From: an uncultured Sphingomonadaceae bacterium
Lineage (GTDB): Bacteria > Pseudomonadota > Alphaproteobacteria > Sphingomonadales > Sphingomonadaceae
DNA: 64,000 nt
Direction of reading: 5' to 3'
NCBI GenBank assembly: GCA_947497315.1
Contig: CANMFX010000001.1
Span: 496,001-560,000 of the forward strand
A program made the position numbers and the translations under genes. Below are positions 11,363-24,704 of this stretch, one piece after another. The notes beneath the pieces are model-generated. The model was not told where the DNA came from, did no database searches, and saw only the letters and a program-made list of their open reading frames with translations. Each line of letters opens with the position of its first letter. Positions within the stretch are counted from its first letter, which is position 1.

Positions 11363-11976
11363 GACGTCATCACGCCCCTGACGCGCAAATAGTCGAGCAA
11401 ATAAAGCAGTGGCAGGCCCATGATTGTAAAGTGATTCCCCTTAATGTCAGAAAAAAGCTGCGCGCCGCGGGCTTCAATTTCATAACATCCAACACAATGG
11501 CGGATATTATCCCATTCTGCCTCAACATAGCTGTCAATAAACGTGTCGCTCAATGGCCGCATGGTCAAAGTCGCGATATCAACATGCCGCCAGACCGGTG
11601 ATCCCTGATCCGCGATCACCGCAGCACTGAATAGTTTATGCTTCTTGCCAGATAGCAATTGTAAATGTGCCTTGGCGTCATCGCGATCCACTGGCTTATC
11701 AAGCATGGAGCCGTCTTCCAGGGCAAGAACCTGATCGCCACCAAGTACTAACGCCGGACCTATCCTCCGCGACAAGCGTACGGCTTTTGCTTCGGCCAGG
11801 GCGTCAGCCAGATTTCGCGCTGTGACACCATCAGCTTGCAAACCTTCTTTCAAAGCTTCCTCGTCAACATTGGGAGGGAGGGATTCAATGACTACACCCG
11901 CCGCTTCGAGCATGGCGCGGCGCGCCATGCTCTTGGAGGCCAGAACAAGCATGGGTTCCGTCACCGGATCATCCAT
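11359..11976 (-). CDS. Maf family nucleotide pyrophosphatase
   Basis: A 205-residue Maf/YhdE-type house-cleaning enzyme that hydrolyses non-canonical or methylated nucleoside triphosphates. Family motifs are LASKSMARRAML near the start, LGGDQVL with the acidic metal site, and the SGKKHKLFSA block. An upstream in-frame start at 12021 would overlap the neighbour by 53 bp. The ATG at 11976 follows AGGATGAGG at suitable spacing and overlaps the regulator gene by only 8 bp, so it is preferred. The substrate class (dTTP/UTP or 7-methyl-GTP) is not decided. Confidence 0.9.
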   Translation of the reverse strand: MDDPVTEPMLVLASKSMARRAMLEAAGVVIESLPPNVDEEALKEGLQADGVTARNLADALAEAKAVRLSRRIGPALVLGGDQVLALEDGSMLDKPVDRDDAKAHLQLLSGKKHKLFSAAVIADQGSPVWRHVDIATLTMRPLSDTFIDSYVEAEWDNIRHCVGCYEIEARGAQLFSDIKGNHFTIMGLPLLYLLDYLRVRGVMTS

Positions 11977-12814
11977 TACCCTCATCCTTTGCGTTTTTTG
12001 TCGAGCTAATGTGGCGCTCATTATAGAAATTTATGATCGCGGCTGCAGATTCCTCAATCGAACGCCGCGTCACATCAATCGTAGGCCACCCGTTATCCGC
12101 AAACATGCGCCGGGCATATTGGATTTCCGCTTTCACCTTTTCCTCATCCACATAGTCCGTTTCCGGTGCCTGATTGAGAGACAATAGCCGGTTACGCCTC
12201 ACCTGAACCAATCGGCCAGCGCCTGCCACCAATCCGACGACCAGAGGATTTTTCAAATGATAAAGCGCATCCGGTGGCGGAGATTCCGGGACAATCGGGA
12301 TATTGGCGGTCTTATAGCCCCGATTGGCGAGATAAATGGAAGTCGGCGTTTTAGATGTGCGCGAAACACCTGCCAGAACAATATCTGCTTCTTCCCAATT
12401 CTCCCAACCAATCCCGTCATCATGGGCGATGGTGAACTGAATGGCTTCCACCCTTTCAAAATAGGCGGCATCCAATATATGTTGGCGACCTGGCCGCGCT
12501 TTCGCTTCCTGACCCAACATGTTGGACAGGGCATCGGTCACGGTATCCAGCGCTGGCACCACCGGCAGGCCCAAATGGCGGCATTCCCGTTCCAATCGCG
12601 CCCTTATGTCACTGTTTACCAAAGTAAAAATGACCAGTCCCGGATTATCTGCAACTTCCACCAATATCCGGTTCAGATGGATTTCGGAGCGCACCATCGG
12701 CCAGAAATGTTTGATAATTTCCACGCCATCAAATTGCGCCAAAGCCGCTTTTGCGATATTTTCCAGTGTCTCTCCCGTCGAGTCAGACAGCATGTGAAGG
12801 TGAAGCCTATTCAT
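11969..12814 (-). CDS. PPDK/PEP synthetase regulatory kinase-pyrophosphorylase (PDRP family)
   Basis: A 281-residue bifunctional regulator (DUF299/PpsR family) that phosphorylates and, by phosphorolysis, reactivates pyruvate phosphate dikinase or PEP synthetase. The N-terminus LHLHMLSDSTGETLE and the P-loop-like GVSRTSKTPTS (near 151-161) are diagnostic, followed by the ANRGYKTANIP block. It is the first gene of the leftward run and borders the candidate oriC. Rickettsia and Caulobacter also have a gene of this family (RP001) beside hemE at the origin. It overlaps maf by 8 bp. Confidence 0.94.
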   Translation of the reverse strand: MNRLHLHMLSDSTGETLENIAKAALAQFDGVEIIKHFWPMVRSEIHLNRILVEVADNPGLVIFTLVNSDIRARLERECRHLGLPVVPALDTVTDALSNMLGQEAKARPGRQHILDAAYFERVEAIQFTIAHDDGIGWENWEEADIVLAGVSRTSKTPTSIYLANRGYKTANIPIVPESPPPDALYHLKNPLVVGLVAGAGRLVQVRRNRLLSLNQAPETDYVDEEKVKAEIQYARRMFADNGWPTIDVTRRSIEESAAAIINFYNERHISSTKNAKDEGNG

Positions 12815-12836
12815 ACCCGCAACCCTGTGATTTCAT

Positions 12837-12845
12837 TGTGGATAA
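12837..12845 (-). promoter_or_regulatory. DnaA box 1 (perfect)
   Basis: TGTGGATAA, the exact complement of the DnaA consensus TTATCCACA, on the minus strand 23 bp from the PDRP start codon. Confidence 0.8.
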
Positions 12846-12904
12846 AGCAAGGGATGAATGCGGGATTTTTGGAGCCTCCATTTTCATCCCCATCATCCCA
12901 AATT

Positions 12905-12913
12905 CTATCCACA
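12905..12913 (+). promoter_or_regulatory. DnaA box 2 (one mismatch)
   Basis: CTATCCACA differs from the DnaA consensus TTATCCACA at the first base only. Confidence 0.65.
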
Positions 12914-12934
12914 GTCCGTCAAGTTTTGGAAATT

Positions 12935-12943
12935 TCATCCACA
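12935..12943 (+). promoter_or_regulatory. DnaA box 3 (one mismatch)
   Basis: TCATCCACA differs from the DnaA consensus at the second base. It is separated by 3 bp from box 4 in opposite orientation. Confidence 0.65.
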
Positions 12944-12946
12944 GAT

Positions 12947-12955
12947 TGTGGATAA
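12947..12955 (-). promoter_or_regulatory. DnaA box 4 (perfect)
   Basis: TGTGGATAA, a perfect DnaA box on the minus strand, facing box 3 in a head-to-head pair. Confidence 0.8.
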
Positions 12956-13070
12956 TGGGGACCAAATTCGGGAATCGGTAAAATTTTCGTTAACAGCCAT
13001 CTGTCAATCTGTTTGTAATCTCGGTAGAGCAGCGTTACCGCCTCTTTCCACGCTCTATCATCATCAACAA

Positions 13071-13099
13071 GATTCTATAAATATACTATATTATTATAT
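13071..13099. other. AT-rich tract, candidate DNA unwinding element
   Basis: Twenty-six of these 29 bases are A or T, far above the surrounding composition. It starts with a GATTC (GANTC-type methylation) site and ends 17 bp before hemE. In an origin this would be the site of first strand opening; it may also hold the hemE promoter. Confidence 0.6.
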
Positions 13100-13116
13100 G
13101 GGATGACCCTTATCTT

Positions 13117-14151
13117 ATGTCTGACGGTACCGACTCTCCAAAAACTTTGCTCAACACTCTGCGCGGCAAGAAACAAGATCAAACACCCGTCTGGCTTATG
13201 CGTCAGGCCGGACGCTACTTGCCGGAATACCGAGAGCTGCGCGCACAAAAAGGCGGTTTTTTGGAACTTTGCTACGATGCACAGGCAGCTGCCGAGGTAA
13301 CCATACAACCGATAAAGCGATTTGGCTTTGATGGAGCGATCCTGTTTTCCGACATTTTGATCGTGCCCCATGCCATGGGTCAGAAGCTCTGGTTTGAGAC
13401 GGGAGAAGGGCCCCGTCTGGCACCAAGGCTCGTCGATGCCGATTTATCGTCTCTTGAGGCTGCTCCGGAGCATTTTGAGGCTATTTATGCCACGGTTCGA
13501 AAGGTAGCCGCGCAACTGGACGACAAAACGACCTTCATGGGCTTTGCCGGCAGTCCCTGGACCGTCGCAACTTACATGTTGCATGGGCAGGGCAGCAAGG
13601 ATCAGGGTGTCGCGCGGCGCTATGCCTATAGTGATGAAGTGGCTTTTTCAGAACTGATCAGTGCGATTATCGATAATACCGTTACCTATCTGCTCGGTCA
13701 GATTGATGCGGGTGTGGATGCGGTTCAGCTTTTCGACAGCTGGGCAGGGTCACTTTCTCCTGCACAGTTTGAAAAATGGGTGATCGCCCCCAATGCAGAA
13801 ATCATATCACGGCTGAAAGCCGTCCACGCCGATCTGCCGATTATCGGTTTTCCCAAGGGAGCAGGGGCCAAGCTGGCCGCTTATGTCAATGAAACAGGCG
13901 CGGATGCCATCGGTCTGGATGAAACCGTAGATCCGGTCTGGGCTCATGAGACCCTGCCAGCGGATTTGCCGTTGCAAGGCAATTTGGACCCTCTTGCGCT
14001 GATTACAGGCGGAGAAGCGCTTGAAAAAGCGACACAAAATATCTTGCAAGTTTTTGCAGACCGCCCGCATGTTTTCAATCTGGGTCATGGGATATTACCT
14101 GACACGCCCATTGAACATGTTGAAAAGCTGCTTACACTTGTCCGGCAATGA
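13117..14151 (+). CDS. hemE: Uroporphyrinogen decarboxylase
   Basis: A 344-residue cytoplasmic enzyme converting uroporphyrinogen III to coproporphyrinogen III in haem synthesis. The diagnostic N-terminal block MRQAGRYLPEYRE, the FSDILIVPHAMG segment with the conserved aspartate, and GFAGSPWTVATYMLHG are all present. The C-terminal NLGHGILPDTP motif is intact. It overlaps hemJ by 4 bp. Its position next to the candidate origin is the same as in Caulobacter and Rickettsia. Confidence 0.97.
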   Translation: MSDGTDSPKTLLNTLRGKKQDQTPVWLMRQAGRYLPEYRELRAQKGGFLELCYDAQAAAEVTIQPIKRFGFDGAILFSDILIVPHAMGQKLWFETGEGPRLAPRLVDADLSSLEAAPEHFEAIYATVRKVAAQLDDKTTFMGFAGSPWTVATYMLHGQGSKDQGVARRYAYSDEVAFSELISAIIDNTVTYLLGQIDAGVDAVQLFDSWAGSLSPAQFEKWVIAPNAEIISRLKAVHADLPIIGFPKGAGAKLAAYVNETGADAIGLDETVDPVWAHETLPADLPLQGNLDPLALITGGEALEKATQNILQVFADRPHVFNLGHGILPDTPIEHVEKLLTLVRQ

Positions 14152-20343: not shown

Positions 20344-20359
20344 TGTTCCACGTGGAACA
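20344..20359. other. parS centromere site 1
   Basis: TGTTCCACGTGGAACA is a perfect 16-bp palindrome matching the bacterial parS consensus (TGTTTCACGTGAAACA) at 14 of 16 positions, with the two changes symmetric. It lies 3 bp after the mnmE stop. ParB encoded nearby is the expected ligand. Confidence 0.88.
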
Positions 20360-22302: not shown

Positions 22303-22920
22303 ATGACGGAACAAGAGGCGCAGGACTGGCTGCGCAACACATTCGATGTTCCACGTGAAACATGGGATCGGTTGGAGCATTTCCTGGTAATATTGGCAGA
22401 GGAAATGCAGCGCCAAAACCTCATCTCCAAATCGAGCGCGGACCATGTCTGGGAGCGCCATGTTGTCGATAGCGCACAACTTTTACTCCATGCTCCCAAG
22501 GGCGAAAGCGACAAAATATGGATGGACCTTGGAACGGGCGCTGGCTTTCCGGGGATCATCATTGCCATATTGGGTGAATATAAGGTGCAGATGGTTGAAT
22601 CACGCACCCGGCGGATAGCCTTCCTGGAATCTGTCGTGGCAAAACTGGGGCTGGCCGAAAAAGCCTTGGTTTTAGGGGATCGATTGGAGAATGTTGAAAG
22701 CCATTCCGTCGATGTCATTAGCGCCAGAGCCTTTGCCCCATTGCAAAAATTGCTTTCACTTTCGCACCGGTTTTCCACAGAAAATACGGTTTGGCTCTTA
22801 CCAAAAGGCAAAAATGCGGTAAGGGAGTTAAAAGGTCTATCCCCAAAACGGCAAAAAATGTTCCACGTGGAACATAGTTTGACCGACCCGGAAGCGGGAA
22901 TATTGGTGGGATTGGGCTGA
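22303..22920 (+). CDS. rsmG: 16S rRNA (guanine527-N7)-methyltransferase RsmG
   Basis: A 205-residue SAM-dependent methyltransferase for G527 of 16S rRNA. The SAM site is DLGTGAGFPG, with SARAFAPL and the PKGKN motif downstream. The ATG at 22303, 7 bp after mnmG, is chosen over one at 22258 that overlaps mnmG by 38 bp. Two parS sites are embedded: one encodes the VPRET segment near residue 16, the other the MFHVEH segment near 187-192. The gene therefore doubles as centromere DNA. Confidence 0.95.
   Translation: MTEQEAQDWLRNTFDVPRETWDRLEHFLVILAEEMQRQNLISKSSADHVWERHVVDSAQLLLHAPKGESDKIWMDLGTGAGFPGIIIAILGEYKVQMVESRTRRIAFLESVVAKLGLAEKALVLGDRLENVESHSVDVISARAFAPLQKLLSLSHRFSTENTVWLLPKGKNAVRELKGLSPKRQKMFHVEHSLTDPEAGILVGLG
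22347..22362. other. parS centromere site 2 (inside rsmG)
   Basis: TGTTCCACGTGAAACA matches the parS consensus at 15 of 16 positions. It lies 44 bp into rsmG and reads through the codons for Asp-Val-Pro-Arg-Glu-Thr. Confidence 0.88.
22859..22874. other. parS centromere site 3 (inside rsmG)
   Basis: TGTTCCACGTGGAACA, identical to site 1, sits near the 3' end of rsmG, 89 bp before parA. It encodes Phe-His-Val-Glu-His. Confidence 0.88.
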
Positions 22921-22962: not shown

Positions 22963-23745
22963 ATGGTCCGGATAGCGATAGCAAATCAAAAAGGCGGCGT
23001 TGGTAAAACGACAACAGCCATTAATATGGCTACAGCTCTTGCCGCGAGCGGGTGGAAGGTTCTGCTGATTGACCTCGATCCACAGGGCAACGCGTCCACA
23101 GGCCTTGGCTTGAATCAGGCGGAACGCACGCATAGCAGCTATGATCTGCTGATTTCCGATACGCCATTGGCGGATTGCGTCATCAACACTCCGGTACCGG
23201 GCCTAGATATTGTACCAGCCGTTGTTGACCTTTCTGGTGCAGAAGTCGAGTTGGTAGAGTTTGAAGAGCGCACTCATCGGCTGAAGAAAGCTTTGGATGC
23301 TGGCGATGATGGTCAGTGGGACATCTGCCTGATCGATTGTCCGCCGTCTCTTGGATTGCTGACGCTCAATGCCATGGTTGCGGTCGAATCTCTGCTCGTG
23401 CCGCTGCAATGCGAGTTTTTTGCATTGGAAGGATTGAGCCAGTTATTGCAGACCGTCGAACGCATCAGGGCGCGGTTTAATCGCGGCCTATCGGTCATGG
23501 GCGTAGTTCTAACCATGTATGATCGCCGCAACAAACTGACCGAGCAGGTGTCTGACGATGTGCGGGCCTGTCTTGGCAATGTCGTCTTCGATACAGTAAT
23601 CCCCAGAAATGTAAGGCTTTCAGAGGCACCAAGCCACGGTTTGCCCGCATTGATTTATGATCATCGGTGCCCCGGATCTGAAGCCTATATCAATTTGGCA
23701 CGGGAATTGATTTCCCGTCTGCCGGAACGGAAGGTGGCCGCGTGA
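22963..23745 (+). CDS. parA: Chromosome partitioning ATPase ParA
   Basis: A 260-residue deviant Walker-A ATPase that moves ParB-parS complexes during chromosome segregation. The motif KGGVGKTTTAIN is at about residues 9-20. Walker A' (DLDPQGNASTGLG) and the DCPPSLGLLTLNA Walker B segment follow. No N-terminal helix-turn-helix is present, so it is the short chromosomal (Soj) type. The stop overlaps the parB start as TGATG. Confidence 0.97.
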   Translation: MVRIAIANQKGGVGKTTTAINMATALAASGWKVLLIDLDPQGNASTGLGLNQAERTHSSYDLLISDTPLADCVINTPVPGLDIVPAVVDLSGAEVELVEFEERTHRLKKALDAGDDGQWDICLIDCPPSLGLLTLNAMVAVESLLVPLQCEFFALEGLSQLLQTVERIRARFNRGLSVMGVVLTMYDRRNKLTEQVSDDVRACLGNVVFDTVIPRNVRLSEAPSHGLPALIYDHRCPGSEAYINLARELISRLPERKVAA

Positions 23746-24704
23746 TGGCGAAAGAAGAGGAAGCTCCATTGCCCAAAAAAGCTGCAATCAAGAAAGCCAC
23801 CGGCTTGGGCAGGGGGTTAAACTCGCTTTTTGGCGAGATTCAACGGGAAGAACCGCTGATCCAGGCCCCTGAAACCGAGATAGATGACGATGGTCCGGCG
23901 ACCCGGGGGGATGGACTGCGCTCCATAGCTATATCAGATATCCGCCCCAACCCGGATCAGCCACGCCAGACGTTCGATAATGAGGCGCTGGATGAACTGG
24001 CTGACAGCATGAAGCTGCGCGGCGTGATTCAGCCAATTGTTGTTCGCCCCCATGGCAAGAATTTCCAGATTGTCGCCGGTGAGCGCCGCTGGCGTGCGGC
24101 ACAGCGGGCAAGGCTGCACCGTGTTCCAGCAATTGTCCGCAGTCTCAATGATGCGGAAACTCTTGAAATAGCGATTGTTGAAAATGTTCAACGGCGCGAT
24201 CTCAATGCTGTTGAAGAAGCAGAAGCCTATGTGAAGTTGAAAGATGATTTCGGCCACAGCCAGGCGAAGCTGGCAGAGCTGGTTGGGAAATCCCGCAGCC
24301 ATATTGCTAATCTGATGCGACTTCTGGAGCTACCGGAATCGGTTCGGACGCTGGTCGGTGAGGAAAAGCTCACCATGGGTCATGCCCGGGCGCTTATTAA
24401 CGCACCTGATTCGGCTGAACTGGCCAGGCAGGTTGTAAAACAGGGGCTTTCCGTTCGGGATACCGAGAAACTGGTGCGCAAGGCGCTGGGTGGACCGCGG
24501 CGTAAAAGCAAGACTCCTTCGACCGGGATTAGCGAAAGTGATGCCGATATCCGTGCGGTTGAGAGTCATCTCGGCGATTTATTGGGCCTGAAAGTGACCA
24601 TTCAGTCCAAAGGCCACACGGGTGCAGGCTCGATGACCATTGAATATAGCAATCTCGATCAACTGGATCTGATTTGTCAGCGCCTAACAGGTGAACATAT
24701 TTGA
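23745..24704 (+). CDS. parB: Chromosome partitioning protein ParB
   Basis: A 319-residue CTP-dependent DNA clamp that loads at parS. An N-terminal GLGRGLNSLFGE segment, which contacts ParA, is followed by the CTP-binding core with PNPDQPRQ and GERRWRA. Next come ENVQRRDLNAVEEA and a helix-turn-helix (SQAKLAELVGKSRSHIANL). The C-terminal dimerisation domain is at about 265-319. GTG 23742 is one codon upstream; ATG 23745 is chosen because it overlaps the parA stop by one base. Three parS sites lie within 3.4 kb upstream. Confidence 0.97.
   Translation: MAKEEEAPLPKKAAIKKATGLGRGLNSLFGEIQREEPLIQAPETEIDDDGPATRGDGLRSIAISDIRPNPDQPRQTFDNEALDELADSMKLRGVIQPIVVRPHGKNFQIVAGERRWRAAQRARLHRVPAIVRSLNDAETLEIAIVENVQRRDLNAVEEAEAYVKLKDDFGHSQAKLAELVGKSRSHIANLMRLLELPESVRTLVGEEKLTMGHARALINAPDSAELARQVVKQGLSVRDTEKLVRKALGGPRRKSKTPSTGISESDADIRAVESHLGDLLGLKVTIQSKGHTGAGSMTIEYSNLDQLDLICQRLTGEHI

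Follow-up and report, generated by a model that had tools for sequence, protein, structure and literature searches.

Organisation of the locus

The window analysed in this study is a 64,000-nucleotide stretch (C1:496001-560000) of an uncultured Sphingomonadaceae genome assembly of 3,417,547 bp in 9 contigs. Within it, a gap of 302 bp at positions 12815-13116 (C1:508,815-509,116 in contig coordinates) lies between a PDRP gene and hemE. The features of the gap and its surroundings, in window coordinates and with the strand where one applies, are as follows.

11969..12814, minus strand: PDRP gene (kinase/pyrophosphorylase, PF03618; COG1806/DUF299 type), left flank
12837..12845, minus strand: DnaA box 1, exact TTATCCACA; place shared with close relatives
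12837..12913: nested inverted repeats, outer 12837-12857/12893-12913 (76%) and inner 12851-12858/12883-12890 (8/8)
12905..12913, plus strand: DnaA box 2, CTATCCACA; place shared with close relatives
12935..12943, plus strand: DnaA box 3, TCATCCACA; place shared with close relatives
12947..12955, minus strand: DnaA box 4, exact, then GGGGA; 76 of the 78 anchored gaps of the family have a box within 2 mismatches at this place
12972..12976: GANTC (CcrM-type) site, conserved upstream of the 16-mer
12979..12993: CtrA-like TTAA-N7-TTAA, one mismatch
13003..13018, plus strand: conserved 16-mer GTCAATCTGTTTGTAA, family form GTCAAGCTGTTGGCAA; family conservation
13035..13040, plus strand: TTACCG, holding the T(A/T)A place, 32 nt after the 16-mer start
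13044..13052, plus strand: degenerate DnaA box CTTTCCACG, 3 mismatches; such a box in about half of the relatives
13055..13104: AT-rich, predicted duplex-unwinding element, with the lowest stability of any 50-mer in the 64 kb
13059..13070, plus strand: triplet array CATCATCAACAA; bottom strand 3'-GTAGTAGTTGTT-5', reading away from the boxes
13117..14151, plus strand: hemE (uroporphyrinogen decarboxylase, PF01208), right flank
20344..20359: parS-like site TGTTCCACGTGGAACA
22347..22362: parS-like site TGTTCCACGTGAAACA
22859..22874: parS-like site TGTTCCACGTGGAACA
22963..24704, plus strand: parA and parB

The nearest HemE sequences were from uncultured Sphingomonadaceae (96 and 94% identity), followed by Sphingorhabdus sp. 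EL138 (93%), Parasphingorhabdus flavimaris (88%) and P. marina (85%), and the host is, as judged by sequence, a Parasphingorhabdus-like sphingomonad. The first-pass annotation of this DNA had named the gap a candidate oriC with the same flanking genes as the mapped Caulobacter origin, and the two families identified here, PF03618 and PF01208, do correspond to the COG1806/DUF299 and hemE genes found there (PMC1914354). This intergenic location, which marks hemE-type origins, was found in the window and in its relatives alike. The gap had also been called compact; its length is ordinary, the median over 88 distinct family gaps being 305 bp.

Comparison of related loci

The locus was compared with 109 other HemE loci (80 named and 29 unnamed), in 105 of which PDRP is divergent from hemE. 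In the other four (L047, L067, L101 and L105), which were left out for lack of PDRP in the stretch, the contig or stretch stops 125-483 nt before hemE. Loci L001-L093 without L047, L067 and the window's own copy (L081), together with the window, gave 91 family gaps, and removal of 3 duplicates left 88 distinct ones. Family membership of L001-L080 was judged from HemE identity and the titles of the records, not from a tree, and a few titles give no more than Proteobacteria or Alphaproteobacteria. L095, whose label places it in the family but whose HemE is only 53% identical, was kept out of the 88; it carries the 16-mer only at 3 mismatches. Alignments were made with 78 gaps (34 clusters) anchored on the 16-mer, up to 2 mismatches being allowed; conservation inside the 16-mer is partly given by this construction, and fixed features are also present outside it. 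Of 143 class-level genomes searched outside the order, the 40 with the best scores were used; 34 of these have a divergent PDRP-hemE pair within 1.2 kb, with at least one DnaA box in 29 of the 34 gaps and none in 5.

DnaA boxes and AT-rich element

Within 119 bp we recovered four 9-mers that differ from TTATCCACA at no more than one position, two being identical to it, and boxes 3 and 4 form a head-to-head pair with a 3-nt gap, both as described in the first-pass annotation. The nested inverted repeat noted there is also real, although its outer part is largely the opposed DnaA boxes themselves; the right arm of the inner repeat is kept in part of the genus only. At least two boxes with no more than one mismatch were found in 76 of the 88 family gaps, and the closest relatives have all four boxes at the same positions. 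Directly after box 1, AGCAAGGGATGAA (12846-12858) is invariant in 21 genus-level gaps, and its AAnCAnGGGA form is recognisable in several other genera.

By number alone, the genome shows no excess of exact boxes (19, versus 17 for a reversed control pattern). The pair in this gap is the only exact pair in the genome less than 12 kb apart. Boxes with at most one mismatch numbered 577 in 3,417,547 bp versus 394 for the control, and the comparison of their places with this cluster covers the first 100 of the 577; by our own Poisson estimate, four boxes would fall within 119 bp somewhere in the genome by chance with a probability of about 2e-4.

The AT-rich end adjoining hemE holds the least stable 30-, 40- and 50-mers of the 64 kb, starting at 13070, 13060 and 13055, respectively. 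As expected of an unwinding element, the AT-richest 30-mer lies no more than 110 bp from hemE in 84 of the 88 family gaps. GANTC sites are present in the gap at 12972 and 13071, with 0.62 expected per 302 bp. Over the whole window the GANTC count is 132, about half the equal-base-frequency expectation by our own estimate.

GC skew, parS sites and dnaA

GC skew was sampled over 814 kb of the 3,418-kb assembly, a figure that includes the window and counts a 4-kb overlap twice; the sample was drawn from C1, C2 as far as 680 kb, C3, and C4 as far as 20 kb. On C1, 8 of 10 stretches to the left of the site were negative and all 14 to the right were positive (window halves included); the left-arm skew is weak, the remaining 2 of its 10 stretches being positive. 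Seven of the eight sampled C2 stretches were positive and the remaining one was -0.0005, all seven sampled C3 stretches were positive, and the single sampled C4 stretch was negative. Within the sampled stretches, the negative-to-positive turn thus falls at the gap, and no second such switch was seen in the sampled parts of C2 and C3. Inside the right replichore, skew is negative again for about 20 kb (at about 31-53 kb of the window, or 30368-52149), where the larger ORFs are mostly on the minus strand; this dip could stem from a block that was inverted or inserted, or from a bias of the coding strand.

Three parS-like sites, defined by at most 2 mismatches to the parS consensus, lie within about 2.5 kb beside parAB and 7-10 kb from the gap, parAB itself being within 12 kb. 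Because the parS pattern and its control gave equal counts genome-wide (3 and 3 versus 3 and 3 matches), the evidence here is the clustering of the sites and not their number.

The dnaA gene is 489 kb from the gap; a dnaA gene far from the origin is usual in Alphaproteobacteria. The dnaA domain match (C1:20066-20548; L131) is preceded, at a distance of about 0.8 kb, by an exact DnaA box (C1:19287-19295) that possibly serves dnaA autoregulation.

A conserved right half

The first-pass map overlooked a conserved right half. The 16-mer pattern GTCAANCTGTNNGNAA was present at no more than one mismatch in 76 of 88 family gaps; at up to 2 mismatches, its reversed control matched 0/88 and reverse complements 1/88. 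A stricter form, GTCAANCTGTTNGNAA, was found in 37 of 50 cluster representatives (one gap per cluster) and never in shuffles. At up to 2 mismatches the 16-mer was found in none of 34 gaps from other orders of the class and in none of 14 from other families of the order. Its sole exact match in the host genome is the origin gap. The 16-mer was also considered as a genome-wide regulator site and rejected, since one-mismatch matches numbered 7 versus 9 for the control and the one exact match is at the origin. No report of the 16-mer was found in the main texts of the papers searched.

Further features are fixed relative to the 16-mer. A GANTC site lies 20-35 nt upstream of it in 77 of 78 anchored gaps, versus 14 of 78 for the next 15 nt, and T(A/T)A occurs exactly 32 nt after its start in 75 of 81 gaps (the 78 anchored plus L028, L033 and L035). 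Of 298 family genomes, 65 matched the composite of 16-mer, T(A/T)A and C, with 66 matches in all versus 5 for the control, counted irrespective of a neighbouring hemE; the composite was discarded as too strict, as it misses the host genome and all 5 sampled congeners. Five family members (L086, L087, L088, L090 and L093) lack the 16-mer and have a GGGAGAA-type sequence instead, and in their alignment the downstream box-like and CCAACA parts are still recognisable.

In L028, L033 and L035 the 16-mer reads GTCATT(A/C)TGTGGA(T/C)AA; there a DnaA box, exact in L028, occupies the place of its right half in the same orientation. The same three gaps carry an exact TTATCCACA at the offset of the degenerate box, +41 from the 16-mer. 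Among the 78 anchored gaps, a plus-strand degenerate box at +38 to +52 was found with at most 2 mismatches in 35 (about 1.3 in shuffles), while 30 have at least 4 mismatches at that place. We take these three relatives as the best hint that the right half of the 16-mer and the +41 place are weakened DnaA sites in the others, comparable to the weak boxes of Caulobacter (PMC4468827).

Tandem CA(A/C/T) triplets precede the AT-rich element in 43 of 50 representatives, versus 14.2 in shuffles (maximum 20), and are found on the opposite strand in 3 of 50. Two or more triplet pairs are present in 28 of 50, versus 2.4 in shuffles (maximum 7); this CAHCAH count was defined after the alignments had been seen and is post hoc. 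An earlier and stiffer pattern, CCAWCWNNNNCAWCAW, was set aside for its only moderate specificity (at most one mismatch in 25/88 gaps; reversed 4/88; reverse-complemented 0/88). In the class-level gaps, a CA(A/C/T) pair in a 90-nt stretch was found in 15 of 34, a raw count without shuffle control.

DnaA-trios are 3'-GAT-5' units on the 5'-tailed strand; none are found in 15% of genomes, deviant trios without the middle adenine are suspected, and a looser search rule accepts three 3'-NAN-5' units no more than 16 bp from a DnaA box (PMC8287927). At least three canonical 3'-(G/A)A(T/A)-5' units in a row were absent from the window gap, and in the 50 representatives they were at chance level (2 on the plus and 3 on the minus strand; shuffles 1.5 on the plus strand). 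Under the looser rule, applied by eye, ATCATCATC gives 3'-TAG-5' three times, the adjacent box being degenerate, while the CAACAA type of other genera does not fit. The fit of the triplets to deviant trios is suggestive only.

Candidate regulator sites

Of 21 genus-level gaps, 19 carry the CtrA-like site of 12979-12993 with no more than one mismatch, 7 of them in exact form. Exact TTAA-N7-TTAA was found in 10 of 88 family gaps and not in the window gap, where this one-mismatch site stands in place of the several CtrA sites of a Cori-type array. Genome-wide, the exact pattern gave 17 matches, below the 60 of its control, and CtrA was rejected as the main regulator at the window gap on both counts. 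The genome encodes one RAMA-domain protein (410-aa frame), which we infer to be CcrM; among 14 control genomes, Caulobacter alone has the domain. One GcrA-like protein is encoded as well, in a search that also matches in the control Sulfolobus. Caulobacter cells that lost CcrM kept their normal control of initiation (PMC3973325), which disfavours the assumption that the conserved GANTC is a replication timer; if it does matter, the sphingomonads would contrast with Caulobacter.

Discussion

The skew switch, the box pair, the parS cluster and the instability minimum agree on one place, and for this reason we regard the 302-bp gap as very probably the chromosomal oriC, of the hemE type of Alphaproteobacteria. 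The relatives point the same way, so that the candidate of the first-pass annotation gains support from each of these lines. The other view makes the gap a divergent promoter region whose DnaA boxes are relics, with replication starting at another locus. It can draw on the fact that some annotations have assigned origins to other places; PMC4741004 wants one Sphingopyxis DoriC entry moved to the hemE region. It must contend with three lines that converge on the gap (the turn in skew, the clustered parS-like sites and the one close pair of exact boxes) and with box positions that are kept in relatives, and we hold it to be extremely improbable.

We read the right half, with its GANTC site, 16-mer, T(A/T)A, degenerate box and triplets, as a putative origin-opening module. 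The main alternative, which leaves the locus an oriC, makes the right half primarily the hemE promoter, with a -35 element at 13012-13017 and a -10 element at 13035-13040. With the exact +32 spacing, seen in 75 of 81 gaps, the usual family sequence becomes TTGGCA-N17-TAARCC; its spacer shows little conservation, and the element is directed towards hemE. In the window, however, the hexamers are poor (TTTGTA and TTACCG), and a sigma-70 scan did not return this promoter, finding two other promoter-like sites with 1.0 expected. Conservation of GTCAA-CTG upstream of the -35 also exceeds what a promoter needs, L028, L033 and L035 have a DnaA box in place of the 16-mer's right half, and L086-L088, L090 and L093 lack the 16-mer with hemE still in place. 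A promoter can explain the 32-nt spacing as well as an opening module does, and the two are compatible: transcription through the AT-rich element may help opening, and at the Caulobacter origin a strong promoter does so. We give this promoter reading serious weight, somewhat short of an even chance. The 16-mer could also be an IHF-type bending site, as in the origins of Caulobacter, Rickettsia and Wolbachia. The family 16-mer fits the core TCAANNNNTTR of the IHF consensus, WATCAANNNNTTR, with one mismatch, and it is placed between the strong boxes and the unwinding element. Against this, the window 16-mer has 2 mismatches to the consensus, position 0 is G and not A throughout the anchored set, and the TG in the free N4 and the trailing GCA are as conserved as the core (partly by anchoring). 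No clean IHF site was found in the window gap, which has one further match, at 12820, with one mismatch. We consider IHF binding at the 16-mer unlikely.

With the right half taken as an opening module, DnaA would load at the four left-half boxes (12837-12955), of which two are exact and two nearly so, spread over the GANTC site, the 16-mer and the degenerate box towards hemE, and open the AT-rich element at 13055-13104 beside the triplet array. The helicase would then enter and forks depart both ways, and ParB on the nearby parS sites would move the new origins apart. A more specific proposal is a lineage-specific route in which DnaA passes from the strong boxes to a weakened box in the 16-mer and, past the GANTC site, to deviant 3'-GT(A/T)-5' trios; it is speculative and, in our estimate, only a little better than a one-in-four proposition. 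L028, L033 and L035 would then be a natural swap in which the weak right-half boxes have been made strong.

If these assignments are right, the replication start of a draft genome is fixed by agreeing independent lines, and the comparison provides a sphingomonad origin map with named, testable bases. The location itself is already published for the family: most Sphingomonadaceae in DoriC have an oriC predicted on the hemE side (PMC4741004), and what is added here is the map of the right half. The predicted oriC of Sphingopyxis granuli TFA agrees in family, hemE side, neighbourhood, DnaA boxes and a putative unwinding element, while the main text of that paper describes no 16-mer, fixed GANTC or triplets (PMC4741004). 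It was the only account of the family's origin found in the main texts of the papers searched.

Wolbachia/Rickettsia-type origins share the hemE flank, DnaA boxes and AT-richness; they differ in that IHF and CtrA sites have been called there, and the Wolbachia origin has a COG1253 flank instead of COG1806 (PMC1914354). Cori of Caulobacter crescentus is likewise flanked by hemE and COG1806 (PF03618) and has an AT-rich region, GANTC and DnaA boxes, but it carries five CtrA sites, compared with one imperfect match here, and only moderate or weak DnaA boxes (G- and W-boxes), compared with two exact ones (PMC1914354, PMC4468827). With the BUS/DnaA-trio system the gap shares a box, a spacer and triplets that read away from the boxes on the 5'-tail strand by the opening site, although the units here are 3'-GT(A/T)-5', with a middle T, rather than 3'-GAT-5' (PMC8287927). 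Should these triplets function as trios, a group whose origins lack the canonical motif would join those that use the BUS mechanism.
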